A stretch of DNA of 64,000 nt from Alphaproteobacteria bacterium (lineage in GTDB: Bacteria; Pseudomonadota; Alphaproteobacteria; TMED109), in contig JAJDWH010000009.1 in NCBI GenBank assembly GCA_022825705.1, positions 62,001 to 126,000 of the forward strand. The letters are read 5' to 3'. Both the position numbers and the translations under genes were made by a program. The notes beneath the pieces were generated by a model that had not been told where the DNA came from, did not search any database, and saw only the letters and a program-made list of their open reading frames with translations. Shown here one piece after another: positions 10,504 through 64,000 of this stretch (positions are counted from its first letter, which is position 1; every line of letters begins with the position of its first letter).

Positions 10504-10551
10504 TAGCGTCGGGTCCAGCCCTCCATACCCGCTCAGACCAGGCAAGATGGC

Positions 10552-11397
10552 ATGAAGGTGGTCCGCAAGGTTTCGGAGTTGAGGTCCGTCGTCCAGCAAT
10601 GGCGCGCGGCCGGTTTCAACGTCGCGCTGGTTCCGACAATGGGAGCGCTGCACGCCGCGCATGCCGCGCTGGTTGCCGACGCCCGCAACCGCGCTGACCG
10701 CGTCGTCGCGACGATCTTCGTCAACCCGCGTCAGTTCGGCGATGACGAGGATCTCGCCGAGTACCCGAGAACCGAAGAAGCCGATCTCCGGCAACTCCGG
10801 GCAGGGGGCGTGGACCTCGTCTTCGCACCGGCGGTAGACGAAATGTACCCGGAGCGCTTCGCCACCTCGGTGATCTTGACCGGTCCGGCGGAAGGCCTGT
10901 GCGGTGCGGCCCGACCGGGGCACTTTGACGGGGTGGCGACGGTGGTTGCGAAGCTTCTCCTGCAGTGCCTGCCCGATGTCGCCGTGTTCGGTGAGAAGGA
11001 CTACCAGCAGCTGCTGGTGATCCGAAGGATGGCTCAAGACCTTGATATACCGGTGCAAATTGTTGGCGTTCCGACCGTGCGTGAGGCCGATGGCCTCGCA
11101 TGCTCCTCGCGAAACGGCTACTTGAACCGGAGTGAACGGGCATCCGCGCCGGTGCTCTACCAATCATTGCGGAGCGCCGCCCAGCAAATCTCCGATGGCA
11201 GCGACGTGTTGCCTGCCGTCAGAGAAGCGCGCGATTCGATTCTCGATGGGGGCTTCCAGGCGGTTGAGTACATCGAGCTTCGCCGCGCCGATACCCTGGA
11301 TCATCCGTCCGTTCGCGACGGAACGCCCGCACGGCTGTTGGCCGCCGCCCAGTTGGGCACCACCCGCCTGATCGATAACGTCGGGCTAACATTTTGA
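10552..11397 (+). CDS. panC: Pantothenate synthetase
   Basis: PanC condenses pantoate with beta-alanine using ATP, the last step of pantothenate (coenzyme A precursor) synthesis in the cytoplasm. The 281-residue length is normal. Family motifs are present: VPTMGALH at residues 25-32, TIFVNPRQFG near residue 58, the GEKDYQQL motif near residue 147, and SSRNGYLN near residue 183. The nucleotide-binding HxGH-type motif reads HAAH, with Ala where most members have Gly, although both His residues are kept. The ATG is fixed because the ATG six bases earlier is out of frame and stops at once. panB and panD are not in the window. Confidence 0.95.
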   Translation: MKVVRKVSELRSVVQQWRAAGFNVALVPTMGALHAAHAALVADARNRADRVVATIFVNPRQFGDDEDLAEYPRTEEADLRQLRAGGVDLVFAPAVDEMYPERFATSVILTGPAEGLCGAARPGHFDGVATVVAKLLLQCLPDVAVFGEKDYQQLLVIRRMAQDLDIPVQIVGVPTVREADGLACSSRNGYLNRSERASAPVLYQSLRSAAQQISDGSDVLPAVREARDSILDGGFQAVEYIELRRADTLDHPSVRDGTPARLLAAAQLGTTRLIDNVGLTF

Positions 11398-11448
11398 CCG
11401 TGCAACCTTGCCATGGCTGCCCGTCGGACTACCCTACCGCAGCCTGTG

Positions 11449-11525
11449 GCGCCCGTAGCTCAACTGGATAGAGCACCTGACTACGGATCAGGAGGCTGAG
11501 GGTTCGAATCCTTCCGGGCGCGCCA
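11449..11525 (+). tRNA. tRNA-Arg (anticodon ACG)
   Basis: A 77-nt cloverleaf is present with an acceptor stem GCGCCCG/CGGGCGC, an anticodon stem CCTGA/TCAGG around loop CTACGGA, a T-arm GAGGG-TTCGAAT-CCTTC, discriminator G and an encoded CCA. The ACG anticodon, with A34 expected to be deaminated to inosine, reads CGU, CGC and CGA. Confidence 0.97.
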
Positions 11526-11622
11526 ACAGCAACGTCTCTTGGCGCTGCCGCTGAATCCGGTGGACCCGTCTCTCAGCACAGTGTCACCGGATCCACCGGA
11601 ACACAGCATCGGAGTTGATCGA

Positions 11623-12135
11623 ATGGGAACCCTTCTTGATGGACGTGGAGGTCTGAGCGCACGCCTCGGCCTGATCATGCTTGTTGGGTCGCTGCTGATT
11701 GCTGCCCCGGCCAACGCCGATGACATGGATGAGCGCTTGGCGGCGTTCAAGCTGTTTACGAATTGCGAACCCATTGACTTCCGCGTTGGGGGATTGCACC
11801 CGGTGGCTGAGGACATCAACCTCACCCGGGAAGCGATTATTGCCACCGTCGAGGGCCGCCTCAATGGTGCGGGCCTGTACGGGCCCGATTCCGATACTTA
11901 CCTGTTTATCAACGTGAACCTCACGACTGAAGCCTTTGACATCATCCTGGCGTTGAAGAAGCAGTTGTACGATCGTTACTCCGGCGAAAGCCGGCCGGCC
12001 ACCACGTGGCCAACCGGTGCCGTCGGCACCCACGAAGACAGTCCGGATGCGATCCTGGCCGCGATCGACGGTCTGATGGATAAGTTTCTCGGCGAGTTTC
12101 AGCGCGTAAACGAATCGGCGTGCAACCAGCGCTAG
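11623..12135 (+). CDS. Exported protein of unknown function
   Basis: I do not recognise this 170-residue protein. A signal peptide is visible (LSARLGLIMLVGSLLIAAPANA, cleavage before DDMDERL). The mature part contains FKLFTNCEPIDFRVGGLHPV, then an acidic helical region and a second Cys near the C-terminus, so a single disulfide is possible. The ATG at 11623 has GGAG eight bases upstream and gives a proper signal; the frame is open to 11539 but the added residues are not signal-like. The gene sits alone between tRNA-Arg and a convergent TRAP cluster. Confidence 0.68.
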   Translation: MGTLLDGRGGLSARLGLIMLVGSLLIAAPANADDMDERLAAFKLFTNCEPIDFRVGGLHPVAEDINLTREAIIATVEGRLNGAGLYGPDSDTYLFINVNLTTEAFDIILALKKQLYDRYSGESRPATTWPTGAVGTHEDSPDAILAAIDGLMDKFLGEFQRVNESACNQR

Positions 12136-12207
12136 CCCTGCCCGGTACCGAAGCCCGCCGGCCGGCCCGCGCGCAAGCTGCGCGCGCGATCCGCGCCCGA
12201 TGATGGA

Positions 12208-12238
12208 CCCCTCGGATGCCGGCGACGTCGCCGAGGGG
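12208..12238. terminator. Hairpin between convergent genes
   Basis: cccctcgg at 12208-12215 pairs with ccgagggg at 12231-12238, and the loop contains a further self-complementary ggcgacgtcgcc at 12221-12232. It lies between the exported-protein gene on the plus strand and dctM on the minus strand, so it may terminate either. No T-tract follows on either side. Confidence 0.45.
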
Positions 12239-12374
12239 CCTAGATTCCCGTCCGTCCGCGGGTACGCCCTGTCATTCGAGCCCCCTCCGCCTTGCACTCG
12301 TTGACTGATTGAATCCGGGCCCGGTTGTTCGGTCGTGGCCAGCCCGTCACCACGGCCGTCTTGACGCGCTCGGC

Positions 12375-13733
12375 CTACCCCATGGTCCTTGGCAGCCACA
12401 ACACGATCCCGGGGAACGCCAGCAAGACCGCAACCGTGAGCAGGTCGGCGACGAAGAACGGCCCGATACCGCGAAAGACGTCCTGAAGCGGAATGGCGAG
12501 CGAACGTCCCTCTGAATCGCGAAGCTCGCGCGAGACCCCTGCGACGACGAAGCAATTGAGACCGATCGGCGGCGTGATCAGGCAGATCTCCGCCATCTTG
12601 ACGACGATGATGCCGAACCAGATCGGGTCATAGCCCAGTGCGACGACGGCTGGGAAGACGACCGGAAGAGTCAGCACCAGCATCCCGATCGCATCCATGA
12701 ACATGCCGAGTACGGCATACGCGAGCAGAATGCAGATCATGATGACGATCGGGGGCATGTCGAGCGTGACGACCCAGTCCGCAAACACGCTCGGCAGACC
12801 GGCGAAACCGAGGAACCGAACAAACAGGAACACACCCCAGATCAGCGTGAAGATCATGACGGTGAGCTTCGCGGTCTCCATCAGCGCCATGCGGAGTCTT
12901 CCGCCCATCTCGCGAAGCGCACGTTCCCGGTAGGCCCTGATCACGTAGAAGCAGAACACCACCATGGCGCCGAGCGCACCGGCTTCCGTGGGCGTCGCGG
13001 CCCCTGTGTACAGCGCGCCGAAGATCACGCCAATGACAAGGAAAATAGGCAGCGTGCCGGGCACGCTCTGAAAGCGCTGGCGCCAGGTGAAGCCGGTGAT
13101 CGGCCGGCCCAGCCCGGGGCGGATCCTGCACATTCCGATGATCAGCCCGGCATAGATCAGGGCCGACACGATCCCCGGCAGGAACCCAGCCAGCAGCAGG
13201 CGACCGACCGACTCCTCGACGATGATGGCGTATACGACAAGAATTGCAGATGGCGGAATCAGTGAGGCGAGCGTTCCGCCTGCCGCGATCACCCCTGCCG
13301 TCAGCCGCCGATCGTAGGCGTTTCGCATCATGTCGGGGATGGCGACCCTGGAGAACACCGCCGCCGTCGCGGTCGATGCACCAGACACCGCCGCAAAGCC
13401 TGCCGCCGCAAACACCGTGGCGACGGCCAGCCCACCCGGAACCCAGCCGAACCAGCGGCGCGCCGCTTCGAATAGCCGTGACGTGAGTCCCGCGTGAAAT
13501 GCGAGAAATCCGATCAGGATAAAGAGCGGCAACACCGACAGCGGATAGGTGACTGCCTTCGAATGCGGGATCGTGCCGGCGATGGCCCCGGCCACATCCC
13601 AGTTCCTGAGCGCGAGCAAGCCGAGGAAGCCGGTCAGCGCCGCCGCCACGAACACGCGCACGCCAATGACCACGAAGACGATAAGCAGGCAAACCCCGAC
13701 GATGCCGATCGTGGCGTTGTCCAAGCCGAGCAT
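12375..13733 (-). CDS. dctM: TRAP transporter large permease (DctM)
   Basis: This 452-residue protein is the transport channel of a tripartite ATP-independent periplasmic transporter, which imports carboxylates or similar small acids using the sodium or proton gradient. It has about twelve hydrophobic segments and the family motifs SVLPLFILIGFLAFHAGL, GASTATAAVFSRVAIPDM, AGGTLASLIPPSAILV and APTPTEAGA-type text (reads AATPTEAGALGA). The ATG at 13733 overlaps the dctQ stop by one base (TGATG), which fixes the start; the frame is open further upstream but only through dctQ. It forms an operon with dctQ and dctP, all transcribed leftwards. Confidence 0.93.
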   Translation of the reverse strand: MLGLDNATIGIVGVCLLIVFVVIGVRVFVAAALTGFLGLLALRNWDVAGAIAGTIPHSKAVTYPLSVLPLFILIGFLAFHAGLTSRLFEAARRWFGWVPGGLAVATVFAAAGFAAVSGASTATAAVFSRVAIPDMMRNAYDRRLTAGVIAAGGTLASLIPPSAILVVYAIIVEESVGRLLLAGFLPGIVSALIYAGLIIGMCRIRPGLGRPITGFTWRQRFQSVPGTLPIFLVIGVIFGALYTGAATPTEAGALGAMVVFCFYVIRAYRERALREMGGRLRMALMETAKLTVMIFTLIWGVFLFVRFLGFAGLPSVFADWVVTLDMPPIVIMICILLAYAVLGMFMDAIGMLVLTLPVVFPAVVALGYDPIWFGIIVVKMAEICLITPPIGLNCFVVAGVSRELRDSEGRSLAIPLQDVFRGIGPFFVADLLTVAVLLAFPGIVLWLPRTMG

Positions 13734-51501: not shown

Positions 51502-51594
51502 GGATGGGTGGCCGAGCGGCTGAAGGCGCTCCCCTGCTAAGGGAGTATACGGTGATGAGCCGTATCGCGGGTTCGAATCCCGCCCCATCCGCCA
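51502..51594 (+). tRNA. tRNA-Ser (anticodon GCT)
   Basis: This 93-nt type II tRNA has acceptor GGATGGG/CCCATCC, anticodon stem CTCCC/GGGAG with loop CTGCTAA, a long variable arm, T-loop TTCGAAT and encoded CCA. It reads AGC and AGU. A T-rich stretch (tttctttctttt) follows immediately. The accessory island begins just past this 3' end, so the gene is a likely integration site. Confidence 0.97.
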
Positions 51595-51721: not shown

Positions 51722-52081
51722 CTATGTACAGCGTCTTGCCCGGGTGCCAACAGTGACCTCCAGCCCGGCCAGCATCCGGTCCTCGATGACTGCTCGGTCG
51801 ATGCCGCGGCAGTCGGAGCAGGTCCCGTTCATCACGTAGTTCAAGCAGCCGTAACGGTCCTGCCCGCGCATAGCGGGTGGGCCGCCGCAGACGCCGCACT
51901 GCAGCAACACCGAAAGCAGGTGCCGTAGCCGGTGAGGTCCGTTAGGGCAGTTGGCTTGCGCTGACTGCACGGCCTCGATCATTGTCGCGTAGCGCTCCGT
52001 CAGCTCGCCTTAACGTTCCCTGACCGCCTGCCGCAGAGCGTCGCCCACGATGCAAAGTTCTGGCACCGGACAAATGGGCAT
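51722..52081 (-). pseudogene. Truncated large serine recombinase (integrase) remnant
   Basis: The frame holds the end of a recombinase domain and its zinc ribbon: PELCIVGDALRQAVRER, then an in-frame TAA at 52010-52012, then GELTERYATMIEAVQSAQAN, HLLSVLLQCGVCGGPPAM, YGCLNYVMNGTCSDCRGI and IEDRMLAGLE. The four ribbon Cys are retained. The N-terminal catalytic serine domain and the C-terminal coiled-coil are absent. The stop falls where homologous proteins usually have a Gln, so a single C-to-T change is the simplest explanation. It lies about 130 bases after tRNA-Ser and is likely the inactivated integrase of the island. Confidence 0.8.
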
Positions 52082-52171: not shown

Positions 52172-54916
52172 ATGAACGCCGTTGAGATCGAGGAAGCAAT
52201 CTCCGCGCTTGCCGAGCTCCCCTTCGAGGCCGGGGAGTTCCCGTTCGCGTTCCTCCAGGCATTTGGCAACAAGGCGACAACGATAAAGCGCCTGCGTTCC
52301 GGAGCGTCGAACAACTCCGATCTCGGCGGGGTTCTTCAACGCAGCCACATTCACATCAAGGCTTGTCCGGAGGGAGAAGTGGCCACCACCTTGGCTGTGC
52401 TCAAGGCGAGCCCGGCGACCGTTCGCGCCAAGGCCAAGTTCGTGCTCGCCACCGATGGCAGAGATTTCCACGCCGAAGATGTGAACAGCGGCGATGTGAT
52501 CGTCTGCGACTATCCGGACTTTCCCGAGCACTTTGGCTTCTTCCTTCCGCTTGCCGGCATTACGACCGTCAAGCAGGTCCGGGAAAGCGCATTCGACATC
52601 AAGGCGACGGGACGCCTGAGCCGGCTCTATGTCGAACTGCTGAAGGAGAATCCCGCATGGGGGACCGCCGACCGCCGTCCCGAAATGAACCATTTCATGG
52701 CGCGGCTCATTTTCTGCTTCTTTGCCGAGGACACCGACATCTTCACCGTCTCGGGTCTCTTCACGGACACCATCGAACGGATGAGTGCAGCCACCAGCTC
52801 GAACACCCACGAGGTGATCGGCAAGATCTTTCGCGCCATGAACACGGATCTCAGCGCCCGCGCTGCATCGGACATACCCCGCTGGGCTGCAGTGTTCCCT
52901 TTTGTGAACGGAGGTCTCTTTTCGGATTCGACCGAGATACCCCGATTTAGCCGGATCGCCCGATCCTATCTTCTCCACATCGGGAACCTCGACTGGCAGA
53001 AGGTCAATCCAGACATCTTCGGGTCGATGATCCAAGCGATCGCGGATGACGAGGAACGTGGCGCGCTCGGCATGCACTACACCAGCGTACCGAATATCCT
53101 GAAGGTGCTTAACCCATTGTTCCTCGATGACCTCCGCCAGAAACTGGAGGAGGCAGGAGGCAGTTCCCGCAAACTCCTGAACCTGCGGAGCCGCATGGCA
53201 AGGATCCGGGTTTTCGATCCAGCCTGCGGGTCCGGCAATTTCCTCGTCATCGCCTACAAGGAGATGCGGGCCATCGAAGCAGAGATCAACAAACAGAGAG
53301 GCGAAGACGGGCGTAGGTCAGACATTCCGCTGACCAACTTCCGAGGCATCGAATTGCGGGACTTTTCCGCCGAAATCGCACGATTGGCTCTCATTATCGC
53401 CGAGTATCAGTGTGACACGCTTTATCGTGATCGGCAGACAGCGCTGGCTGAGTTCCTGCCACTTGACGCTGAAAACTGGATTGTCTGCGGCAACGCGCTG
53501 CGGCTGGACTGGCTGACACTCTGCCCGCCCACAGGAATGGGTATCAAACTACACGCCGACGATTTGTTCGAGACGCCCCTCGATCAGGCCGAAATCGATT
53601 TCAGGAACGCGGGGGGCGAAACCTACATTTGCGGAAATCCTCCATATTTGGGGAAGGGAAAGAAAGGAAGCGCCCAATTGAATGACATGAAGCACGTCCT
53701 CGGCGGGTATACGAAGAGATTCGGGTATGTAGATTATGTGGGTTGTTGGTTCTTGCGTGCCGCCGAGTACATTCAGGGAACAAAGGCGTCAGCGGCGTTC
53801 GTTGCAACGAACTCGCTTTGCCAGGGTAGACAACTGCCGCAAATCTGGCCCTTTGTACTAAGAGAAGGCGTTGAGATTTTCTTTGCGCATCACTCGTTCA
53901 AATGGTCGAACAACGCCGCCCGGAATGCCGGCGTCACATGCGTCATTGTGGGCATTGCAGCAAAACAAGAGAGACCCAAGACGATCAACTACGGCTCGTT
54001 GTCCCGGCGCGTATCGAATATCGCCGCCTATCTTGTGGAAGGCGAGAGCATTTATGTCAAGAGCTCTCCTAGACCCTTAGCCAAGCATTTGCCTGAAATG
54101 CGCACAGGCAGCGTTCCCAATGACGGTGGAAACCTGATTCTTTCACACGAGGAGGCACATGAGCTGACCCGGAAGTATGAACTTGCCCCATCATTCTTGC
54201 GCTCTTTTTTTGGCTCCCAGGACTTTCTGCACGGAAATGTAAGAAGTTGTCTCGTCATCGGTGATGATCAGGTCCACACTGCCAAGGCAATTCCCGAGAT
54301 CAATTCTCGCTTGGCCGAAGTCTCTAGATTGAGAAGCAAGAGCAAGAAGAGAGAGACGAGAGAACAGCTTGCAGCGCTTCCGCATCGCTTTCAGCATCGG
54401 GGACCAATACCTTCAGACCACGTCATCATCGTGCCGTCTGTGAGTTCCGAACGCAGAAAGTGGTTCCCGGCCGGAGTGCTTCCCAAGGAAACAGTAGTCT
54501 CCAATCTTGCATTCATGATCGTGGACTCTCCGCTGTGGAATCTGGCGTTGATTACATCGCGGCTGCATCTGGTTTGGATTGCTACGGTCTGCGGAAAGCT
54601 GAAAACAGACTTCAGGTATTCAAACACGCTCGGCTGGAACACCTTCCCGGTACCGACCCTGACGGAGAAGAATAGAGCCGACCTCACCGCCTGCGCCGAG
54701 AACATTCTGCTCGCGCGCGAGTCGCACTTCCCGACGACGATCGCCAAACTCTACGATCCCAAGAAGATGCCGGAGAGTCTCCGTGCTGCGCATGAGCGTA
54801 ACGACGAGGTTCTCGAGCGCATCTACATCGGCCGCCACTTCCGTAACGACACGGAACGGCTGGAGAAGCTCTTCGAGCTTTACATCGACGAGAGCAAAGC
54901 CAGAGGGGCGGCATGA
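52172..54916 (+). CDS. Large adenine-type DNA methyltransferase of a five-gene defence operon
   Basis: This 914-residue protein is a gamma-class amino-methyltransferase related to the MmeI/COG1002 group. Order: an N-terminal domain (1-130), a helical spacer (131-340, with HFMARLIFCFFAEDTDIF, FPFVNGGLF and DIFGSMIQAI), motif I FDPACGSGNF at 348-357, motif IV ICGNPPYLGKG around 487-495, and a C-terminal target-recognition region from about 500 to 800. The N-terminal domain matches the MmeI position but has HIHIK at 60-63 instead of the D...ExK nuclease motif, so cleavage is probably not done by this protein. The segment encoding residues 490-830 is AT-richer than its neighbours. ATG 52172 has no strong ribosome-binding site. 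The stop overlaps the next ATG by four bases. Confidence 0.88.
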   Translation: MNAVEIEEAISALAELPFEAGEFPFAFLQAFGNKATTIKRLRSGASNNSDLGGVLQRSHIHIKACPEGEVATTLAVLKASPATVRAKAKFVLATDGRDFHAEDVNSGDVIVCDYPDFPEHFGFFLPLAGITTVKQVRESAFDIKATGRLSRLYVELLKENPAWGTADRRPEMNHFMARLIFCFFAEDTDIFTVSGLFTDTIERMSAATSSNTHEVIGKIFRAMNTDLSARAASDIPRWAAVFPFVNGGLFSDSTEIPRFSRIARSYLLHIGNLDWQKVNPDIFGSMIQAIADDEERGALGMHYTSVPNILKVLNPLFLDDLRQKLEEAGGSSRKLLNLRSRMARIRVFDPACGSGNFLVIAYKEMRAIEAEINKQRGEDGRRSDIPLTNFRGIELRDFSAEIARLALIIAEYQCDTLYRDRQTALAEFLPLDAENWIVCGNALRLDWLTLCPPTGMGIKLHADDLFETPLDQAEIDFRNAGGETYICGNPPYLGKGKKGSAQLNDMKHVLGGYTKRFGYVDYVGCWFLRAAEYIQGTKASAAFVATNSLCQGRQLPQIWPFVLREGVEIFFAHHSFKWSNNAARNAGVTCVIVGIAAKQERPKTINYGSLSRRVSNIAAYLVEGESIYVKSSPRPLAKHLPEMRTGSVPNDGGNLILSHEEAHELTRKYELAPSFLRSFFGSQDFLHGNVRSCLVIGDDQVHTAKAIPEINSRLAEVSRLRSKSKKRETREQLAALPHRFQHRGPIPSDHVIIVPSVSSERRKWFPAGVLPKETVVSNLAFMIVDSPLWNLALITSRLHLVWIATVCGKLKTDFRYSNTLGWNTFPVPTLTEKNRADLTACAENILLARESHFPTTIAKLYDPKKMPESLRAAHERNDEVLERIYIGRHFRNDTERLEKLFELYIDESKARGAA

Positions 54917-55779
54917 GCGAGTTCAATCGCATGACCGTCGTCGCTGCCGCCGAGGTCATTTCGAGCTTCCTATCGCACAGCGACATGAAAGTACTGGAAG
55001 TCCAATGGGGGATAGCGGGAAGGTGCAGCGATTCGAGCAAATCGGCGCGGGTCGCGGATCTGGCGCGTATCGCCTGCGAGGAGGAAATCGAAGTCCTGAC
55101 GGAAGGTGGACAGGTGCACCTCAGCCGCGCGCTGGTCGAGATCGCAATTGCAGCGGGCGAGTACCAGCAACTTTCGGCTGCCTGGCGGAAGTTCGTCGCG
55201 GGCTTGCGATTTGACGGGTTCGAAGTCCGCTCGACGCAGGTAGATGCCGAGTCAGACGAGTATTGGCAAAGCGGCCGAAATGAAACTGCCGTTGAGCTTG
55301 TCCGAATGCTGCCGTCGGACGCTCCCGGCCTCGACTTTCGGGAAGCGGAAAGCGAAGTCACGCTGCTCTTGGACCGACACGGCTTCACCGTTGCAAAGGG
55401 GCATTTGCAGCAGGCGGTCTCAGCATTCAGTCGCGGGGAATGGTCATCGGCCAACGGAGAGTTGCGAAATCTCCACGAGAGCTACCTCAACGAAATCGCG
55501 ACGAGCTTGGGCTATACCGGCAGCGCTGACGGCAAGGCAAGGCGGGACTACCTCGGGAGCCTTCAGCCGCCGTTTCTACTCGCGGACTACAACGAGTGGA
55601 ATTCCAATAACCAAAAACCGCAATACGTTCAGGGATTGATGAGCAGAATGCACCCCCATGGCGGACACCCGGGCCTCTCTGAGGAAGAAGACGCGACCTT
55701 CAGGCTTCAGATTTCGCTCGTGACCGCACGCCTTTTCCTTCGCCGATTCGACCAGAGGATCGGGCCTTCCCATGAATGA
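54913..55779 (+). CDS. Unknown protein in the five-gene defence operon
   Basis: I cannot assign this 288-residue protein to a family. The N-terminal half is helical with acidic patches. The C-terminal half contains LQQAVSAFSRGEWSSANGEL, LNEIATSLGY, GLMSRMHPHGGHPGLSEEED and LQISLVTARLFLRRFDQRIG. The last two segments resemble the end of abortive-infection and HEPN-like helical domains, where a conserved GxxH-type turn precedes an ATxRLxxxLxxxxL helix; this is an impression, not a match. It overlaps the methyltransferase stop by four bases and the helicase start by eight, so its production is coupled to both. Confidence 0.8.
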   Translation: MSEFNRMTVVAAAEVISSFLSHSDMKVLEVQWGIAGRCSDSSKSARVADLARIACEEEIEVLTEGGQVHLSRALVEIAIAAGEYQQLSAAWRKFVAGLRFDGFEVRSTQVDAESDEYWQSGRNETAVELVRMLPSDAPGLDFREAESEVTLLLDRHGFTVAKGHLQQAVSAFSRGEWSSANGELRNLHESYLNEIATSLGYTGSADGKARRDYLGSLQPPFLLADYNEWNSNNQKPQYVQGLMSRMHPHGGHPGLSEEEDATFRLQISLVTARLFLRRFDQRIGPSHE

Positions 55780-57817
55780 CTCCATCCCCTCAGTCTCGGT
55801 CACCTACGCCCGCAGCGGCAACTCCACGAGGTCCAACGAGCTCGGCATGCGTCCGATGCAGGAGCGAGCCTGGGAGAAGCGAGGCGAGCAGTATCTCCTG
55901 ATCAAGTCGCCGCCGGCGTCAGGCAAGAGCCGGGCTCTCATGTTCATCGCGCTGGACAAGCTGCACAACCAGGGCCTCCGCCAGGCTATCGTCGTGGTGC
56001 CGGAGAGGACCATCGGCGCGAGCTTCGCCGACACGGCGCTGAGCGACTTCGGCTTCTGGACCGACTGGACCGTTCCCCCGAAATGGAACCTTTGCAACGC
56101 GCCGGGCACCGACGGCGGGAAAGTCAATTCGGTCAAAGCGTTTCTCGACAGTGATGACCGCATCCTGGTCTGCACCCATGCCACCTTCCGCTTTGCGGTG
56201 GACCGGTTCAGCGCGGGCGCGTTTGACGGCCGGCTGATCGCGGTCGACGAGTTTCACCATGTCTCGGCCAACCCAGACAACCGGCTGGGCGAGCATGTTG
56301 GGCAGCTCATCGCCCGTGACAAGTCGCACATCGTGGCGATGACGGGCTCATATTTCCGGGGCGATGCCGAGCCCGTGCTCATGCCCGATGACGAGGCAAG
56401 GTTCGAAACCGTCACCTACACCTATTACGAGCAGCTCAACGGCTACGAGCACCTGAAGCGGCTCGACATCGGCTATTTCTTCTACACAGGCAACTATGCC
56501 GAGGACATCCTGCGTGTGCTCGACCCCGATGAGAAGACGATAGTCCACATCCCCAGCGTCAACTCGCGCGAGAGCACCAAGGACAAGATCCGCGAGGTCG
56601 AACACATCATCGAGGAACTCGGCGAGTGGCAGGGCGCCGATGCGACGACCGGGTTCCAGCTGGTCAAGACGCCGGCAGGCCGGATTCTGCGGATCGCCGA
56701 CCTAGTCGATGACGACCCGGGGAGGCGGGAGCGTGTCGCGGCCGCGCTCCGGGATCCGGACCGGATGAACGATCGCGACCATGTCGACATCATCGTCGCC
56801 CTCGGCATGGCTAAGGAAGGATTCGACTGGGTCTGGTGCGATCACGCGCTGACTGTCGGCTACCGATCCAGCCTCACCGAGATCGTGCAGATCATCGGTC
56901 GGGCAACGCGTGACGCGCCCGGCAAGACCCGAGCCCGATTCACGAACCTGATCGCCGAGCCGGACGCCTCGGAAGAGGCAGTCACCGAGGCGGTGAACGA
57001 CACGCTCAAGGCCATCGCAGCGAGCCTGCTGATGGAGCAGGTGCTGGCACCTCGCTTCAATTTCAAGCCCAAGCGACAGGACAGCGGTCCCGTCGAGGGT
57101 GCCGACTATGGCGAGGCAGGTTACGACCCGGAGAAGTGCAACGTCGGGTTCGATCACGATACCGGCCAGTTCCACATCGAGATCAAGGGGCTGGCAGAGC
57201 CGACGGGCAAGGAGGCCGAGCGTATCTGCCGCGAAGACCTGAACGAGGTGATCACTGCGTTCGCGCAGGACAAGACTTCCATCGAGCGCGGGATCTTCGA
57301 CGAGGAACTCGTGCCGGAGGAACTGACCCAAGTGCGCATGGGCAAGATCGTCAAGGACCGTTACCCGGAACTCTCCGAAGAAGACCGAGAGGCGGTGCGT
57401 CAGCACGCCGTCGCCGCCCTGAACCTCACCCGGAAAGCGAAAGAAACCGTGCTCGACGAGACGGAAACGCAGATGAACGGCAGTACCGCGCTGATCGACG
57501 GGGTGCGGAAGTTCGCCATGGACGTGCGCGATCTCGACATCGACCTGATCGACAGGATCAACCCCTTCGGCGAAGCCTACGCGATCCTGGCCAAGACGAT
57601 GAGCGAAGAGAGCCTGAAGCAGGTCGCCGCCGTTATCACGGCGAAGAAGATCCAGCTCACGCCGGAAGAGGCGCGAGACCTCGCGCGGCGAGCCCTCCGG
57701 TTCAAGCAGGAGCGCGGCCGTCTGCCGTCGATCACTTCGCAGGACCCGTGGGAGAAGCGCATGGCGGAAGGCGTGGCCTTCCTCGCCCGCATGAAGGCCC
57801 AGACCTTCAGTGGATAG
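55772..57817 (+). CDS. SF2 DEAD/DEAH-type helicase of the defence operon
   Basis: This 681-residue protein is a superfamily 2 ATPase. Motifs: a Q residue in RPMQERAW (Gln30), Walker A SPPASGKSR (46-54, Ser-Pro-Pro in place of the common TGxGKT), motif II VDEFHH (DEFH 159-162), motif III MTGSYFRG (TGS 191-193), and motif VI IIGRATRD (375-381). It resembles the translocase subunits of type I and III restriction systems but has no nuclease domain: residues 430-681 are helical and charged. It probably remodels or translocates on DNA for the GIY-YIG subunits. It overlaps both flanking genes by eight bases. Confidence 0.88.
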   Translation: MNDSIPSVSVTYARSGNSTRSNELGMRPMQERAWEKRGEQYLLIKSPPASGKSRALMFIALDKLHNQGLRQAIVVVPERTIGASFADTALSDFGFWTDWTVPPKWNLCNAPGTDGGKVNSVKAFLDSDDRILVCTHATFRFAVDRFSAGAFDGRLIAVDEFHHVSANPDNRLGEHVGQLIARDKSHIVAMTGSYFRGDAEPVLMPDDEARFETVTYTYYEQLNGYEHLKRLDIGYFFYTGNYAEDILRVLDPDEKTIVHIPSVNSRESTKDKIREVEHIIEELGEWQGADATTGFQLVKTPAGRILRIADLVDDDPGRRERVAAALRDPDRMNDRDHVDIIVALGMAKEGFDWVWCDHALTVGYRSSLTEIVQIIGRATRDAPGKTRARFTNLIAEPDASEEAVTEAVNDTLKAIAASLLMEQVLAPRFNFKPKRQDSGPVEGADYGEAGYDPEKCNVGFDHDTGQFHIEIKGLAEPTGKEAERICREDLNEVITAFAQDKTSIERGIFDEELVPEELTQVRMGKIVKDRYPELSEEDREAVRQHAVAALNLTRKAKETVLDETETQMNGSTALIDGVRKFAMDVRDLDIDLIDRINPFGEAYAILAKTMSEESLKQVAAVITAKKIQLTPEEARDLARRALRFKQERGRLPSITSQDPWEKRMAEGVAFLARMKAQTFSG

Positions 57818-59000
57818 GAAGTTCACCGACGAAGACGACGCCCTGCTCGCCGAACTCGGCGTCGTCGTCGAGCCTGAAAAAGGGGCAAGCCGCACGCCTC
57901 GGGAGGAGCGCATCATCGCGGGCTTCGAGGAGATCCAGCGTTTCGTTGAGACGCACGGCCGCGTTCCACGCCACGCCGGGGGCGGCGACATCTTCGAACG
58001 CCTGTACGCAGTGCGTCTGGACCGTATCAGTGAGCAGGACGACTGCCGCGCGCTGCTGACTCCATTCGACCGTCAGGGGCTCCTGAACGATCAACCCGAA
58101 GCCGCGTCTGCCCCATTGGATGCCATGGACGATGAAACATTGCTGGCAGAGCTCGGCGTCGAGTCCGCCGCGCCAGACATCGGCAAGCTTCGCCATGTTC
58201 GGTCCAGCGCTGAGAAGCGCGCTGCTGAGGAGATCGCAACCCGCAACAAGTGTGAGGACTTCGAGACGTTCCTGCCGCTCTTCGAGCAGGTGCAGAAGGA
58301 ACTGGACGCTGGTCTCCGGGAAACCCGTCCCCTTGGCGTCCAGGCTGACATCGAGCCTGGCCGGTTCTTCATCGTCGGCGGCCAGAAAGCCTATGTCGCC
58401 GAGATGGGCGAAGAGTTCACGCAAAGTTACGGCGACCGGGACGCGCGGCTGCGCGTCATCTTCGACAACGGCACCGAGAGCAACATGCTCAGGCGCTCGC
58501 TTCAGCGCGCGCTCCACAAGGACGAGACGGGCAGGCGGATACTGGAGACCACGGAGGGCCCATTGTTCGCGAATGTGACGTCGGACGGCGACGAGGCCAG
58601 CGGCACAATCTATGTGCTGCGGAGCAAGGCGGACATTCCGTACGTCGCCAAGAACCGCAATCTCGTTCACAAGATCGGCGTCACCACCTCGAAGGTGGAG
58701 ACTCGCATCGCAGGTGCGCGTCTGGAACCGACGTTTCTGATGGCCGACGTCGAGATCGTCGCCTCGTACAAGCTCTACAACATCGACCGCGCCAAGCTGG
58801 AGAAGCTGATCCACCGCATCTTCGCGCCAGCGCGTCTCGATATCGAAATCGAGGACCGTTTCGGCAACCCTGTCGTCCCGCGCGAATGGTTCCTGGCACC
58901 CCTCGACGCCATCGACGACGCGGTCGAGAAGATCCGGGAGGGAACCATTACCCGGTACCGATACGACGCCGCGTCGGCGTCGCTTGTTGAGAGGCAGTGA
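57810..59000 (+). CDS. GIY-YIG family protein with T5orf172/MUG113-like domain
   Basis: This 396-residue protein ends in a GIY-YIG-type domain of the T5orf172/MUG113 kind. GTIYVL is at 265-270, KIGVT at 288-292 (the YIG strand), a catalytic-type Arg at 299 in ETRIAGARL, and Glu331 in KLEKLIHRIF, which is the metal-binding position. The N-terminal 260 residues contain two related acidic segments (DDALLAELGVVVEPEKG and DETLLAELGVESAAPDI), the second about 125 residues after the first. This suggests an internal duplication. It is predicted to be a nuclease subunit. GTG 57810 overlaps the helicase stop by eight bases. Confidence 0.8.
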   Translation: MDRKFTDEDDALLAELGVVVEPEKGASRTPREERIIAGFEEIQRFVETHGRVPRHAGGGDIFERLYAVRLDRISEQDDCRALLTPFDRQGLLNDQPEAASAPLDAMDDETLLAELGVESAAPDIGKLRHVRSSAEKRAAEEIATRNKCEDFETFLPLFEQVQKELDAGLRETRPLGVQADIEPGRFFIVGGQKAYVAEMGEEFTQSYGDRDARLRVIFDNGTESNMLRRSLQRALHKDETGRRILETTEGPLFANVTSDGDEASGTIYVLRSKADIPYVAKNRNLVHKIGVTTSKVETRIAGARLEPTFLMADVEIVASYKLYNIDRAKLEKLIHRIFAPARLDIEIEDRFGNPVVPREWFLAPLDAIDDAVEKIREGTITRYRYDAASASLVERQ

Positions 59001-59917
59001 TGGCGGATCCGTTCACCATCCGCATCTATGTCCCCGGCGGCGACCCGGAGGGGCTCCGCCTGATCGATCGCATGAACTGGACGGGGCTCGGCCTGGTATT
59101 TCGCAGGTCTGACTGGCCCGAGGTTCGCAAGCGCGACGAAATGCAGCAAACCGGCATTTACGTTCTCGTCGGCTACCGCAATGCGGACGATGATTTGCCT
59201 ACCCTCTATATCGGGCAGGCCGACGGCATCAAGGCGCGCATCGACACTCACCAAAAGGACAAGGAATTTTGGCACTGGGCTGCGGTGTTTGTTTCGACCA
59301 GCCTCGGGCTGAACCGGGCTCACGTCACCTGGCTCGAATATGCGCTCGTCAAGCGGGCGGCGGAGACAATGGGCTGCCACCTCGACAACGGCAACGCGCC
59401 CCAGGAGCCTGCTTTGACCGAAGCAGAGAAGGCTGACACGCAAGCCTTCATGAAGGAAATCCTTCAGATTCTCCCGCTCGCCGGCCTGCGGGCATTCGAA
59501 ATCCCGAAAGCGGTCGCGGCGCCGCTCGCCAGCGATCCTCTGACCGGCACGAAGCCAAGCGGCTGGGAACGGGACACGATCATTGTTCCTGCAAAGAAGG
59601 ACGGGTTCGAGGAGATCTTCCTTGGGGAAGATTGTTGGTACGCAATCCGTATCGCCGGTGGAATGCTCGACAAGATCAAGTACATCGCCGCGTACCAGAC
59701 GAAGCCGGTATCGGCCATCACGCACTACGCCCCCGTCTCCCGTATCGAGCCCTATGGTGAAGGCGGCAAGTACAAGGTCGTGTTTTCCGATAGCGCCAAG
59801 CCCATCGGGCCCATTCCCTACGGAGACGCCCGTGGCGCCATGCAGGGTCCAAGCTACACGTCGTTCGCACGCCTGCAGAATGCGCGAAAGCTCACCGACG
59901 TTCTGGGCACGAACTGA
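59000..59917 (+). CDS. GIY-YIG nuclease, last gene of the defence operon
   Basis: This 305-residue protein is a second GIY-YIG nuclease, of a different subfamily from its neighbour. GIYVL at 52-56, YIG at 70-72 in LYIGQADGIKARI, Arg80, His84 and the metal ligand Glu113 in WLEYALVKRA are all in place, followed by FWHWAAVFVSTSL and VSRIEPYGEGGKYKVVF. The C-terminal half resembles the DUF4357-type wrapper found behind such nuclease domains. The catalytic set is complete. ATG 59000 overlaps the preceding stop by one base (TGATG); an in-frame GTG three bases earlier is also possible. It is the last gene of the tightly packed operon. Confidence 0.88.
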   Translation: MADPFTIRIYVPGGDPEGLRLIDRMNWTGLGLVFRRSDWPEVRKRDEMQQTGIYVLVGYRNADDDLPTLYIGQADGIKARIDTHQKDKEFWHWAAVFVSTSLGLNRAHVTWLEYALVKRAAETMGCHLDNGNAPQEPALTEAEKADTQAFMKEILQILPLAGLRAFEIPKAVAAPLASDPLTGTKPSGWERDTIIVPAKKDGFEEIFLGEDCWYAIRIAGGMLDKIKYIAAYQTKPVSAITHYAPVSRIEPYGEGGKYKVVFSDSAKPIGPIPYGDARGAMQGPSYTSFARLQNARKLTDVLGTN

Positions 59918-60011
59918 TGCTGGGCCCAATGTCGCAGCCTTCGGTGGTTCGGTTTCGAACGCAATTCGGGCCACGGCCCGCGCCCAATCTCATCCAACTC
60001 AGAGCATTGCG

Positions 60012-60233
60012 ATGACCGATACGCTCATCGAACGCAACCCGGACATCCTTGGCGGGACCCCCGTCTTCGCGGGAACCCGGGTTCCAGTGCGCATCTTGAT
60101 GGAACATCTCGAGGCCGGGGACCGCCTCGACGATTTCCTGATGGACTACCCAACGGTGTCGCGACACCAGGCTGTCGCGTTGCTGGAGCGCGCGACGACC
60201 ATGCTGGTGTCCACCGATGAAGCTGCTGCTTGA
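60012..60233 (+). CDS. DUF433 antitoxin
   Basis: This 73-residue protein has the DUF433 winged-helix pattern, NPDILGGTPVFAGTRVPVRI followed by LMEHLEAGDRLDDFLMDYPT and RHQAVALLERA. The family is the antitoxin of VapC-like DUF5615 toxins. It overlaps the damaged toxin frame by 17 bases. As the toxin is broken, it is probably left as an orphan antitoxin. Confidence 0.88.
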   Translation: MTDTLIERNPDILGGTPVFAGTRVPVRILMEHLEAGDRLDDFLMDYPTVSRHQAVALLERATTMLVSTDEAAA

Positions 60234-60469
60234 TGAATCGGTACCTCGGCGCCTCGCCGCGTCCTTTCCCGCGCCATCACGTAATTTCTGCTTTATCGGC
60301 CGCGCCAGCAGCGCCACCGAAACGTCGCCGCAGGCAGCGAGCCGTCCCTGGCGGGGAAATCTGAAGTGGCGGCGGGCACGGCGATCAGCGTGGGAACGAC
60401 CAGCAACACGAACACCCGACCGGAAATTGGTCGTGGCGGCGCTCAAGTTCGAGGACCCTGGAATGGCAC
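60217..60469 (+). pseudogene. Broken DUF5615 PIN-like toxin
   Basis: The frame opens with MKLLLDESVPRRLAASFPAP, the normal start of DUF5615 toxins, overlapping the antitoxin end as intact pairs do. After about 20 residues the sequence loses any resemblance (RNFCFIGRASSATETS). Traces of the family's DxxxxxQQH segment reappear in another frame near 60395. It therefore looks frameshifted and rearranged and should be inactive. Confidence 0.7.
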
Positions 60470-61108
60470 TCACGAGCGTCGTCGTCCATTTGGATCTACG
60501 TATTCCGGATTCTTCTCCACCCCGCCATCTTTGGTAACGCGAAACGGCCGGTCCGGCGGGAGCTCGATCCGGTAGGCGCCCCTTTGTTTCGGCGATCTGT
60601 TGTTTACGGTCTGCACGACCGCTTCGGTATCACGACTTGTGTAATCAACTTGGCCTTCCTTTGCCGCGTTCCTGCCGTAACGCGGCGGAAAGCTCAAGAA
60701 CGCCTCGAATGTTCTCATGACAGGCTCGTCATAGTCTGCAGGGTGATCCTTCGCGAGTTTGGCTAGCGTGGCAATCGCAGCGGTTCGGGTAACGTAACTC
60801 CAACCCCCGCTCTGCTCGGCTCCCCTAAGCTGGGCCGCCGCTATCTCGTATTGCTTATTCCACAGGGTCCTGAGCGTGGCGTTCCAGTTGAACCACGCGG
60901 TGGCAACCGCCCCAAGCGCGGCGATGGCTAGCCCGAGCTTGGCAGCCAGTTCCAGCCATGCCATCCAGTTCTCACCTCCATCGTCCGACGCGACAGGGGC
61001 GCTGCAGCAGGCCGAAAACATGACCAGCGGACACAGGGCGATAAGTCTCCACGCGGCGCGAAACGACAGACCTCCGATCTGTCTACCCACTCCGCTTACA
61101 ATTCCCAT
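60470..61108 (-). CDS. Membrane protein of unknown function
   Basis: The 212-residue product has two hydrophobic segments (WRLIALCPLVMFSACCSAPVA, with a lipobox-like FSAC, and LELAAKLGLAIAALGAVATAW). They precede a cytoplasmic helical region, AIATLAKLAKDHPADYDEPV, that resembles the N-terminal domain of bacterial pentapeptide-associated membrane proteins. The function is unknown. The start is taken at ATG 61108; a TTG at 61132 would add eight residues. It lies inside the island in opposite orientation to its neighbours. Confidence 0.62.
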   Translation of the reverse strand: MGIVSGVGRQIGGLSFRAAWRLIALCPLVMFSACCSAPVASDDGGENWMAWLELAAKLGLAIAALGAVATAWFNWNATLRTLWNKQYEIAAAQLRGAEQSGGWSYVTRTAAIATLAKLAKDHPADYDEPVMRTFEAFLSFPPRYGRNAAKEGQVDYTSRDTEAVVQTVNNRSPKQRGAYRIELPPDRPFRVTKDGGVEKNPEYVDPNGRRRS

Positions 61109-61226
61109 CCCGGTGGCACCATGTTGCGGCAACGTTCCGGCCCTTTGCTGGCGCCACCGTGATGCGGCAGCTGTTCGATTTCCATCCCCATGCCCCAGTG
61201 CTGCCGCACGTGATCCATTCAGCGGT

Positions 61227-61500
61227 GTGGGGCAGGTCTTGGAAGAGTGTAGCGCCTATGTCGGGCTGGACGTCCACAAGGACACAATCGCCGTGGCGGT
61301 GGCCTGTCCGGGCCTGGAGGAGGCGGTCAACCGGGGCCCGGTCCGGAACACGGATGCGTCGCTGCAGCGGCTGGTGCGCCAGCTGAGTCCGAACGGTGAG
61401 CGGCTGAGCTTCAGCTACGAGGCGAGTCCGTGCGGATACGGGCTCTACCGGGAGCTGATGGCGCTGGGGCATGGTCTGGCTGCACGCGCCTCCACGATCC
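61227..61500 (+). pseudogene. IS110-family transposase remnant
   Basis: The frame opens with CSAYVGLDVHKDTIAVAVAC, the DEDD catalytic start of IS110 transposases, and continues to EASPCGYGLYRELMALGHGL, its second acidic region. From there on no IS110 sequence remains: the expected segment with a conserved Lys-Arg-rich run and the C-terminal transposase-20 domain are missing. It is a 5'-end fragment. Confidence 0.75.
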
Positions 61501-62006
61501 GCGGCCGGCTCCTGAAGGTCGCCACCCGCCTCTCCTTCATCCGGCGCAAGATCTGCATCGCATTCATGTCGGTCTACCTGCTGCAGGCCGTTTTCGCCCA
61601 CATGCTCGCGACCCTGTGCGCAACGCCGACCCGCACCAACCCCGGCCGATCCCGCCCAATGGTACTGCTCGACGCGCTGACTAAGAGCGCCGCCGGTGGA
61701 ATTTGCCCGGCGTCAGGCCATGCACCGTCACCCACCGCCGAATCGTTTTGGCCGCGGCTGGCGCTGGCCGGCGGCGTCTGCCCCACGGCACGATCCATAC
61801 CGCGAGGCTCGTCCGAACCGGGCCCGTGCACCTCACGACGTCAGCACAACCGGCGCTGGCGAGCGAAGCGGGCTGAGTTGGGTGAGAACGGGCGCGTTCG
61901 CTTGGCCCGCGACGTCACGGGAACTCGAAAACCTTGGTATGGTCCGAGTTAGGCCGGGAACACCTCAAGCCGGTGGTCGACCAAGAACGAGTACGTGTTC
62001 GGCCGT
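61501..62006. other. Spacer between IS110 remnant and the next operon
   Basis: About 500 bases contain no gene I can support. Open plus-strand frames continue from the IS110 fragment but have no family character. I see no terminal inverted repeat. Confidence 0.45.
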
Positions 62007-62780
62007 ATGGCATCGGTCACGAGTTCTTCAAGCCTTATGGACGTGGCGGTGGAAGCACGACTAAAACGCCTTGATGCGGCGCATGAAGTGACGCTTGCAG
62101 TTCCGTTGTTTGAACTTCCGCAGCGAGGACTGGAGCTGCTCCGTGACTTGCATGGCCGCCTCTCTGACCTGGCCCACCCCATCGCATCGCACGAGATGCA
62201 TTTCTTCGGTGGTACTGCGTTGTCAGACGTGCGCGCGCAAATTCAGCTGTACGGCGGCAACGCGGAGGTCGAGGTCACGGTCGAAAAATGCAGTGTCCGT
62301 TTCAACAATATGCCCGGGCTGGATCAAGTCCAACTGTTCAAAGATTGCGTTGAGACGGTATGGGAAAGCATCCTTGAGATTTTTCCGACCGCCAGCGCCG
62401 CGTTGCTATCCATTCGCCCCACACTCCAAATGGAGTTGGCGGATGCAAGTAACGCCGGCAGGTACCTCACGCAAGTTGCCGGCTGGGGCAAGGAAGGGGC
62501 GTGGGACAAGTTCGGGCGCGTAGCCGAGCACCCGGGCGTCAGTCTCGAGCTTGCGCACGCGGATGAAGGATGGAACGCAGTCTTCAATGTATTTCGTGAT
62601 CGCACCTCCGAATCATCGCTTGTGCTGACGTGCGTTGCGATCTACATGATCCGAGACGAGAAAGACCCAAATGCGAGCGGTGCCATGATGGATCGCTTCA
62701 CACACTTGGAAGGGCTGCTGGAGGCATTCGTTGACCAATGCGGGCTGGAGGCTGCTAAGGGTAGCGAGAGCAAGCCATGA
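62007..62780 (+). CDS. Unknown protein upstream of a DUF2384-RES pair
   Basis: The 257-residue product does not match any family I know. It is a soluble protein with alternating strands and helices, including FELPQRGLELLRDLHGRLSD, HEMHFFGGTALSDVRAQIQL and NAVFNVFRDRTSESSLVLTC. Its stop overlaps the antitoxin ATG by four bases (ATGA), so it belongs to the toxin-antitoxin operon. The start is uncertain: GTG 61995, ATG 62007 and ATG 62037 are all possible, none with a good ribosome-binding site. It could be a third component of the system or a carrier gene. Confidence 0.62.
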   Translation: MASVTSSSSLMDVAVEARLKRLDAAHEVTLAVPLFELPQRGLELLRDLHGRLSDLAHPIASHEMHFFGGTALSDVRAQIQLYGGNAEVEVTVEKCSVRFNNMPGLDQVQLFKDCVETVWESILEIFPTASAALLSIRPTLQMELADASNAGRYLTQVAGWGKEGAWDKFGRVAEHPGVSLELAHADEGWNAVFNVFRDRTSESSLVLTCVAIYMIRDEKDPNASGAMMDRFTHLEGLLEAFVDQCGLEAAKGSESKP

Positions 62781-63436
62781 CACAGATGACACCGCTCAGT
62801 CCCGACAACGTGCAACCTGCCTCAGAACCTTATGAATTGGCATCCCCCCGGAATCAGCCGATTGTCGGGCTCGGGGAGATCCCGGCCTACCAATTGCGAG
62901 AGGCAATATCGTTTGAGTCCCTGTTTGCCGGTATTGAAGATGCGTACAAGGAAGACGAGAGCACCCGAATGGATGCCGCGGCGACCTCGAGGCAGCGGTT
63001 CATTGCAGTCTTGGTCGATCGCCAGCTTGAGGAACCCCGGGCTGAACGCCACTTCTCATTTACGATTTCTGACCGCCGGGGACAGCCGTCCGGCCCAATC
63101 AAGTTCTTCTTGCTTCTGCTCAAGACGTGGAAGCTCGAGCGCGGCGACGCGGCGACGCTGCTTGGTTTCGAACGTGCTGAACTGGGTCACGTAGATCGAC
63201 TACTCGAGGGGCATGCATTGCTCACCGGGCGAGACGTCAAGGATCGAATCGCCTACTTGTTCGAGGTCAGGAGAACCCTCGCGGGTCTATTCCGCAACGA
63301 GGACGTAGAGAACGCTTGGCTCAGGGAGCCGCATGCCGGCCTCGGCGAGCGGAGTCCGTTGAATCTGTTGCTGGAAGGCACAATGGAAAATCTTCTGGTC
63401 ATCAGGGACTATGTGCTGAACGCCGCGGGTAAGTGA
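62777..63436 (+). CDS. MbcA/ParS/Xre-type antitoxin (DUF2384)
   Basis: This 219-residue protein ends in the DUF2384 toxin-binding domain: LLEGHALLTGRDVKDRIAYL, EVRRTLAGLFRNEDVENAWL, LGERSPLNLLLEGTMENLL and RDYVLNAAG. The middle region (KFFLLLLKTWKLERGDAATL) may be the remnant or variant of the Xre helix-turn-helix. The N-terminal 60 residues are unusual for the family. It should neutralise the RES toxin encoded next. Its stop is two bases from the toxin start. Confidence 0.85.
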   Translation: MTQMTPLSPDNVQPASEPYELASPRNQPIVGLGEIPAYQLREAISFESLFAGIEDAYKEDESTRMDAAATSRQRFIAVLVDRQLEEPRAERHFSFTISDRRGQPSGPIKFFLLLLKTWKLERGDAATLLGFERAELGHVDRLLEGHALLTGRDVKDRIAYLFEVRRTLAGLFRNEDVENAWLREPHAGLGERSPLNLLLEGTMENLLVIRDYVLNAAGK

Positions 63437-63437
63437 A

Positions 63438-64000
63438 TTGTTAGCGTCCATCAGGACCGAACCGCTCGAACTGAAGTTGCACCGATGCGCCAGCCATCAG
63501 GGTGTCTCTGAATTCCTGGGTACGCTTGAGTTGGAGGACCAGGCGGTGGTCGAGATGATGGAGCTGCTGAACGAGCGCGGTATGGACGAATCGCTGGACC
63601 ATCTCTGCGACGGTCCGTTTAGGCAAAAGACGCGATTGCACGGAGACAAGGCCCGAGCTACCCGGTATTCGGACGGCACGTATCCAGTGTTCTACAGCTC
63701 GCTGGAAACTGAGACTGCCGAAGCAGAAATTCGACATTGGTTTCCCTCGGTCATTGGTCGGCCTCCGACCCCGAGAACGGCCTATTACGTATGCTTTTCC
63801 TGCGAATTTGAGGGCCAGACAAAAGACCTGCGCCCGAAGCTCCGCGACTGGGCGGACCTTGTTTCGGACGACTACGGGTTTTGCAATGGGTTGGGCCGAG
63901 AGGCCATGCAGCAGGAACTGGATGCCCTCTTAGCTCCATCGGCGCGCCGTTCAGAAGGCACCAACGTCCCGGTACTCCGAAGAAGCTCCATCCGTGACCC
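63438..64000 (+). CDS. RES-domain toxin (runs off the window)
   Basis: This partial frame (187 codons, no stop in the window) encodes a RES-domain protein: KLHRCASHQGVSEFLGTLEL at the start, then ATRYSDGTYPVFYSSLETET, AEIRHWF, and EGTNVPVLRRSSI near the end. The Arg, Glu and Ser residues of the motif are at TRYSDG, ETAEAEI and VLRRSSI. RES toxins of the ParT/MbcT type degrade NAD or modify nucleotides. The start I infer is a TTG at 63438, one base past the antitoxin stop; no ATG fits before residue 43. Confidence 0.82.
   Translation, partial: MLASIRTEPLELKLHRCASHQGVSEFLGTLELEDQAVVEMMELLNERGMDESLDHLCDGPFRQKTRLHGDKARATRYSDGTYPVFYSSLETETAEAEIRHWFPSVIGRPPTPRTAYYVCFSCEFEGQTKDLRPKLRDWADLVSDDYGFCNGLGREAMQQELDALLAPSARRSEGTNVPVLRRSSIRD

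Follow-up and report, generated by a model that had tools for sequence, protein, structure and literature searches.

A probable island-borne DnmA(YeeA)-YeeB-YeeC restriction-modification operon with two embedded accessory genes in an alphaproteobacterium

Introduction

In Bacillus subtilis, the DNA methyltransferase DnmA (YeeA), an MmeI homologue without an endonuclease motif, is encoded upstream of the superfamily 2 (SF2) helicase YeeB and the T5orf172 protein YeeC (PMC7261158, PMC9973331). DnmA introduces N6-methyladenine (m6A) into GACGAG, the gene order is kept in other bacteria and it has been suggested that dnmA-yeeB-yeeC forms a Type I-like restriction-modification (RM) system (PMC7261158, PMC9973331). 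The role of YeeABC is disputed: the cluster is regarded as a relic in B. subtilis, while a protective function against phages is reported for Vibrio, where deletion of the dnmA or yeeB homologue of Vibrio crassostreae resulted in greater sensitivity to some phages (PMC9973331).

In this study, we analysed a stretch of 64,000 nucleotides, referred to as the window, from an alphaproteobacterium of the TMED109 lineage (contig JAJDWH010000009.1, positions 62,001 to 126,000) and in it an operon of five genes at 52172-59917, here called M, U, H, N4 and N5. We consider it likely that this operon is an intact-looking, island-borne DnmA(YeeA)-YeeB-YeeC RM system, made up of M, H and N4, with two embedded accessory defence genes, U and N5. 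The YeeABC core is already known; its combination with U and N5 and the behaviour of the place between yeeA and yeeB as a guest slot appear to be new. Literature searches on related terms, none of them naming all five genes, turned up no description of either.

Results and Discussion

The operon matches dnmA-yeeB-yeeC

The operon was confirmed as five overlapping genes, all on the plus strand, and the open reading frame (ORF) coordinates agree with an earlier note on this DNA, which had read successive overlaps of 4, 8, 8 and 1 bases (the last becomes 4 if N5 starts at GTG 58997) and products of 914, 288 and 681 residues for the first three genes. The methyltransferase, helicase and GIY-YIG families found also bear out its view that these are the parts of an RM-type system. 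The same note had taken the combination to be an unnamed one; however, M, H and N4 match the published dnmA-yeeB-yeeC cluster in domains, order and strand (PMC7261158, PMC9973331). As in B. subtilis and V. crassostreae, an MmeI-like methyltransferase without an endonuclease motif is followed by an SF2 helicase and a T5orf172/GIY-YIG protein, whereas in the window U separates yeeA from yeeB and the end of yeeC is overlapped by another GIY-YIG gene, N5. Plasmids, genomes and IMG/VR contigs carry relatives of M, H and N4 as one run of genes, and on the Acetobacter plasmid pAC258-26 the H relative is annotated as YeeB and is flanked by a DNA methyltransferase and a GIY-YIG protein.

Type I RM systems have a separate HsdS and a fused helicase-nuclease HsdR, whereas in the window the target recognition domain (TRD) lies inside M and helicase and nuclease are separate genes. 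U, H, N4 and N5 gave no match in PADLOC to the proteins of BREX (PglX with PglZ/BrxC) or DISARM (DrmABC). Membership of BREX, DISARM and Type I was therefore dropped on the basis of the Pfam and PADLOC scans, in agreement with the statement of the earlier note that the locus resembles none of these, nor type IIL. Its proposal to search all five proteins against models of defence systems was only partly rewarded: with PADLOC 2.0.0, M (REase_MTase_IIG, 8.6e-273) and N5 (PDC-S14) were matched, but H and N4 only weakly (best 1.7e-5 and 6.5e-4) and U not at all. YeeABC is found on many plasmids and genomes, yet the PADLOC models tried match only its methyltransferase strongly. In NCBIfam there was no match for U, N4 or N5 and one for H only below the cut-off, and sequence searches against solved structures returned nothing useful for U, H, N4 and N5; matches of N4 to myosin light chains (0.001) were taken as chance.

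A methyltransferase without its own nuclease

Pfam places in M the domains MmeI_N, MmeI_hel, MmeI_Mtase (3e-110), MmeI_TRD (3.6e-76) and MmeI_C, all five in the order of the Type IIL enzyme MmeI, the structure of which (5hr4) is matched at 5e-129. Partial PADLOC matches to DrmMI (8.2e-31) and PglX (2.7e-6) are far weaker than that to REase_MTase_IIG. In contrast to MmeI, M lacks the PD-ExK Glu, so that an active nuclease site in the same chain is missing, and helicase and nuclease are separate proteins in the operon. We aligned M with 39 other rows (40 in total; two pairs, L004/L085 and L062/L097, apparently stem from the same genomes). None of the 37 YeeA-type rows has the Glu, the column being K, A, L or I, and in the window a His sits two residues before it; only the MmeI-type methyltransferases of L062/L097 and L134 keep the Glu. 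The earlier description of an MmeI-like methyltransferase without PD-ExK therefore stands, and the Type IIG label given by PADLOC was dropped because of this loss. Motif I (DPACG) is invariant across the 40 rows and motif IV nearly so, with NPP in all rows except one that has NPQ. From these features, M is predicted to recognise and mark DNA without cutting it.

Compared with its relatives in G006 (L004), L135 and G001 (L086), M is a mosaic, with an N-terminal domain that is 85-94% and a TRD that is only 37-49% identical, as would be expected if M alone sets specificity.

Helicase, YeeC-type nuclease and a proposed mechanism

H matches the Pfam families DEAD (9.2e-8) and ResIII (1.3e-5), and N4 matches MUG113 (8e-14) and T5orf172 (4.2e-11), both of which we take to be branches of GIY-YIG. 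In an alignment of 44 H rows, no catalytic residue of Walker A, DEFHH, TGS or motif VI varies, and the same holds for the GIY/KIG, Arg, Glu and EWF residues across 44 N4 rows; judged by these residues, both proteins look active. The idea of the earlier note that GIY-YIG proteins are the cutters is probably correct.

Based on its sequence class and on the activity of B. subtilis DnmA, M would read one asymmetric target through its TRD and methylate adenine. By Type I-like logic, M may then recruit or license the YeeB ATPase on unmethylated foreign DNA, and YeeB would translocate along or remodel the DNA, leading to cleavage by the GIY-YIG nuclease YeeC. U may act as an accessory effector with a HEPN-like fold, probably as a second line of an abortive kind when restriction fails, and N5 as a separate guest GIY-YIG nuclease behind yeeC, which an ASCH-like domain may steer to particular DNA.

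The five genes are not a conserved unit

Among the loci examined, which were collected by similarity to H or N5 and not randomly, the set M-U-H-N4-N5 is complete only in the window, in L085 (apparently the same as G006) and in L135. Since it is complete and in the same order in the latter two, the arrangement is not a chance one. H and N5 relatives were each found in 17 and U relatives in two of 385 genomes of the class, and H and N5 share only the window's own genome (G001 and G006 lie outside that sample); within the genus, H is present in three and N5 in four of seven genomes. A scan of genome contigs gave 58 N5 loci, and H-N4-N5 stand together in L085, L086 (apparently G001), L087 and L135 of these. 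A fragment of the N4 end precedes N5 in G005 (L059, apparently the same as L092), and N5 of L120 has a YeeABC set nearby on the opposite strand. M and H were both measurable in 40 distinct loci (49 rows less the duplicates L004 and L174 and seven rows without a measurable M end, namely L044, L073, L087, L145, L146, L156 and L158). U is present in four of them and N5 follows yeeC in four (window, L085, L086, L135); N5 at an identity of at least 55% occurs in five, L120 included, and L150 has a distant relative (25%).

The five genes are therefore not a conserved unit, and the proposal that they form one system was dropped; the synteny check suggested in the earlier note found U and N5 apart from the other genes. 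A related explanation is that the operon encodes a single dedicated machine of five subunits, with U as a structural subunit and the two GIY-YIG proteins as one hetero-nuclease. The overlapping genes and their common order in the window, L085 and L135 speak for such a machine. However, G001 keeps M, H, N4 and N5 while Septu genes replace U, and the scarcity of U and N5 in the 40 loci, together with the near absence of genomes shared by H and N5, makes it very unlikely.

A guest slot between yeeA and yeeB

The gap between M and H measures at least 400 nt in 16 of the 40 loci. In comparison, the H-N4 junction leaves no room for a gene in 43 of 44 distinct loci, where it is estimated at -29 to +10 nt; in the remaining one it is 152 nt (46 measurable rows, L051, L156 and L158 being left out, less two duplicates; positions are estimates). 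Occupants of the M-H gap include RhuM (L048, L153), a PD-(D/E)XK protein (L045, and likewise L156, which is outside the 40), DUF1016/YhcG (L054), a SLFN AlbA ATPase after U (L006), a pentapeptide protein (L055), a RelB/YafQ-like pair recognised by eye (L056) and some proteins without a Pfam match; L052 and L055 may carry frame damage, which leaves their slot contents unsure. In the same-genus genome G001 (L086) U is replaced in the slot by the Septu genes PtuA (8.9e-80) and PtuB (3.8e-40), while H, N4 and N5 are 94-96% identical to those of the window.

On a tree of the 40 H proteins, at least 11 changes between filled and empty slots are required, and close neighbours such as L049 and L051, or L153 and L151/L152/L155, differ in slot state; this is a quick tree with long branches and no shuffle control, on which gaps of 102-211 nt (L151, L152, L154, L155) were scored as empty. 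Because Septu, RhuM, PD-(D/E)XK and U-type genes occupy the yeeA/yeeB slot and its occupants change between close relatives, it is a ready place to seek new defence genes. Defence operons that enclose an accessory toxin or defence gene have been described before, among them R-M operons with HEPN or RhuM genes, a Type I RM operon with DarTG2 and Hma with Septu (PMC3710099, PMC12255303); in the case presented here, the host operon is YeeABC and the slot is that between yeeA and yeeB.

Two further arrangements were seen. At L054:1-3811, a RhuM gene separates most of the methyltransferase from a 75-aa piece resembling its C-terminus, and the DUF1016 nuclease gene comes next. At L155:11050-13844, the region behind yeeC is another variable place, with a PRTase-CE gene and an ORC-CDC6-like gene joined by 4-base overlaps with yeeC.

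The slot protein U

The Pfam and PADLOC scans assigned U to no family. An alignment of 11 members shows an invariant H-x2-G-x-HPGLS...FR core, and an AlphaFold2 model from six sequences reached a mean predicted local distance difference test (pLDDT) score of 77 and a predicted template modelling (pTM) score of 0.49. As HEPN and RhuM genes have been described within R-M operons (PMC3710099), an accessory and perhaps abortive role of U is plausible.

In L082, an IMG/VR contig, U comes after M at the contig end, and in L073, a Falsirhodobacter plasmid, it comes before H. A single-sequence scan of viral contigs gave no relative, while a profile scan gave three. U also occurs apart from YeeABC, for example in L005, where the run of genes at 8512-13112 contains a distant relative together with an ABC-type protein that matches PDC-M68B and a match to PD-Lambda-3_B; genes recognised by eye as a Tn7-like transposition set lie nearby. 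This context suggests that U-type genes join other defence modules.

The guest nuclease N5

N5 comprises 306 aa from GTG 58997 or 305 aa from ATG 59000, and the latter start is favoured because most relatives align from the second residue. It stays below the cut-off for Pfam GIY-YIG (E 0.2), and its N-terminal half matches three PADLOC PDC-S14 models (4.5e-55, 2.1e-48 and 4.8e-46); PDC-S14 is a guilt-by-embedding candidate of PADLOC (meaning of PDC: PMC12988326). Its GIY-YIG catalytic residues (G53/Y55, Y71/G73, R81, E114 and N131) do not vary in any of 40 aligned rows, which comprise 39 of 43 full-length relatives and the window. The N5 model, built from 40 sequences, has a pLDDT of 86.3 and a pTM of 0.77, and its C-terminal domain is probably ASCH-like. 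In this it differs from the PDC-S14 members of L078 and L150, for which Pfam confirmed a DUF4357 end; the C-terminal ends of the PDC-S14-like relatives in L065, L066, L077, L078, L079 and L081 are also different. The DUF4357-type protein of L150 follows yeeC, and PDC-S14-type guests therefore seem to have joined YeeABC more than once.

N5 homologues often, though not always, adjoin RM genes of various types. One lies after HsdM and before HsdS in L065, others between hsdS and hsdR (L078, L079), and others again after an MmeI-type methyltransferase (L062/L097, L134), a Type ISP enzyme (L095), a large IIG/DrmMI-like methyltransferase (L060/L093), HsdR-like proteins (L108, L117), a C5 methyltransferase (L110) and ResIII helicases (L090, L113); other neighbours in L063, L064 and L066 gave no RM match, one of them matching PDC-S01. 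A same-strand non-YeeC ORF of at least 150 aa lies within 150 nt upstream of N5 in 21 loci, and the 13 such neighbours examined comprised seven clear RM genes, two ResIII helicases and four others, a raw count without a background rate for random genes. It had been considered that N5 replaces the lost PD-ExK nuclease, but this was dropped since N5 also occurs beside MmeI-type methyltransferases with intact ExK and in type I operons containing HsdR.

The same neighbours bear on the explanation that N5 rather than YeeC does the cutting and that YeeC is regulatory. N5 has a full GIY-YIG site and PDC-S14 proteins often adjoin methyltransferases, as this explanation would have it. However, most YeeABC loci examined have no N5, YeeC, with its invariant catalytic residues, comes after YeeB, the MmeI-type neighbours of N5 in L097 and L134 retain their own ExK, and HsdR is present beside N5 homologues in type I operons, so that we give this explanation almost no credence.

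A bolder proposal, which we put forward as a doubtful one, is that N5 represents a new type of guest nuclease: a GIY-YIG cutter with an exchangeable C-terminal domain (ASCH-like here, DUF4357 beside type I genes) that would read the modification state of DNA and move between unrelated RM operons as a backup against DNA wrongly marked by the host methyltransferase or disguised by a phage, and that would, together with the HEPN-like slot gene, make YeeABC a layered defence platform. The N5 family in any case offers a testable idea of how GIY-YIG guests cooperate with unrelated methyltransferases.

Weighing the evidence

Several observations speak against the reading of the operon as a working YeeABC system with two accessory defence genes. 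Deletion of yeeB or yeeC in B. subtilis left phage killing and plaquing unchanged, and the study describes the cluster as a relic (PMC9973331); the cluster had no effect on the transformation tested either (PMC7261158, PMC9973331). The link between the window and the B. subtilis genes is drawn from domains, gene order and one YeeB label, not from direct sequence comparison. For U, the best Foldseek match is the HEPN protein 1o3u (probability 0.99, target TM 0.61) with an E of 0.17, which is above 0.001. Other HEPN chains stand further down the list, and these matches weakly suggest a HEPN-like fold; we take the aligned part to be the helical C-terminal half. The canonical HEPN RNase motif is R-x4-6-H; H247 and H252 of U are invariant in 11 rows but the Arg before this His pair is not, and a HEPN-type RNase activity is hence doubtful. 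For N5, the best Foldseek match is the Zymomonas ASCH protein (ZmASCH; target TM 0.51), with a best E of 5.5e-3 that is also above 0.001; ZmASCH chains make up eight of the nine top matches (ranks 1-7 and 9, probability 0.99-1.00), aligned with what we take to be the strand-rich C-terminal half. Several neighbours of N5 are not RM genes: in four other loci the gene before it encodes a TPR, oxidoreductase, AAA_23 or DUF3854 protein, and the annotation of a Tolypothrix plasmid shows no RM operon immediately next to the N5 relative.

The B. subtilis results support the alternative that the operon consists of an orphan methyltransferase and a decayed restriction relic, as concluded for DnmA, and merely marks the host chromosome. 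Four lines of evidence argue otherwise and lead us to regard this as unlikely. First, the catalytic motifs of H, N4 and N5 are intact. Second, H and N4 are under purifying selection, with omega values, computed for the window against G006 (L004), L135 and G001 (L086), of 0.084-0.134 for H and 0.085-0.111 for N4; those for N5 are 0.105-0.181, and for U, against the two relatives that carry it, 0.18-0.29. Third, the strong divergence of the TRD among sister genomes fits a working RM system that exchanges its target specificity, and argues against a relic. Fourth, tblastn (E 1e-5) on 72,556 plasmid records found H relatives in 264, of which 166 are typed as conjugative or mobilizable; U relatives were found in 38 and N5 relatives in 50 records. 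A phage collection yielded three partial matches to H.

A mobile island at tRNA-Ser

The operon begins 577 bases past a tRNA-Ser gene (Table 1) and lies in an island of about 41.4 kb at 51595-92996, the first 12.4 kb of which are inside the window (coordinates past 64000 refer to the same contig beyond it). These bounds follow from the 14-base end repeat CGCCCCATCCGCCA, present at both ends, and from the empty sites of the sister genomes G002 and G004, in which the sequence after the tRNA continues with that at coordinate 92983. The operon sits at this tRNA in G001 and G006 as well, and in G005 the match to the window stops just past the tRNA, at 51616.

Table 1. Coordinates of the operon genes and of features at the left edge of the island
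Feature	Position	Strand	Basis
tRNA-Ser (gct); the 14 bases at its 3' end (51581-51594) form the island's left repeat	51502..51594	+	Empty-site comparison
Serine recombinase fragment (zinc ribbon), 86 aa, near the left edge of the island	51722..51982	-	Pfam Zn_ribbon_recom 1.8e-6
M, 914 aa, YeeA/DnmA-type MmeI-derived adenine DNA methyltransferase with its own TRD and a degenerate PD-ExK site	52172..54916	+	Pfam, MmeI 5hr4 match, motif column
U, 288 aa, guest-slot gene, HEPN-like fold weakly predicted	54913..55779	+	No Pfam or PADLOC family
H, 681 aa, YeeB-type SF2 ATPase/helicase with intact Walker A, DEFH and motif VI words	55772..57817	+	Pfam, alignment
N4, 396 aa, YeeC-type GIY-YIG nuclease (T5orf172/MUG113), catalytic residues invariant	57810..59000	+	Pfam, alignment
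N5, GIY-YIG nuclease of the PDC-S14 kind; its second domain, at the C-terminus, is probably ASCH-like	58997..59917	+	PADLOC, model, alignment

Directly 3' of the operon, the stretch 60006-60534 holds a DUF433 gene and, after it, a short frame without a Pfam match, which may be a decayed partner; an IS110-like transposase frame with a weak Pfam match lies at 60876-61952. At 62777-64000 there is a gene with an Xre/MbcA/ParS toxin-binding domain; a RES-domain gene comes after it in the syntenic G006 locus L004, and the island likely carries an Xre-RES toxin-antitoxin pair.

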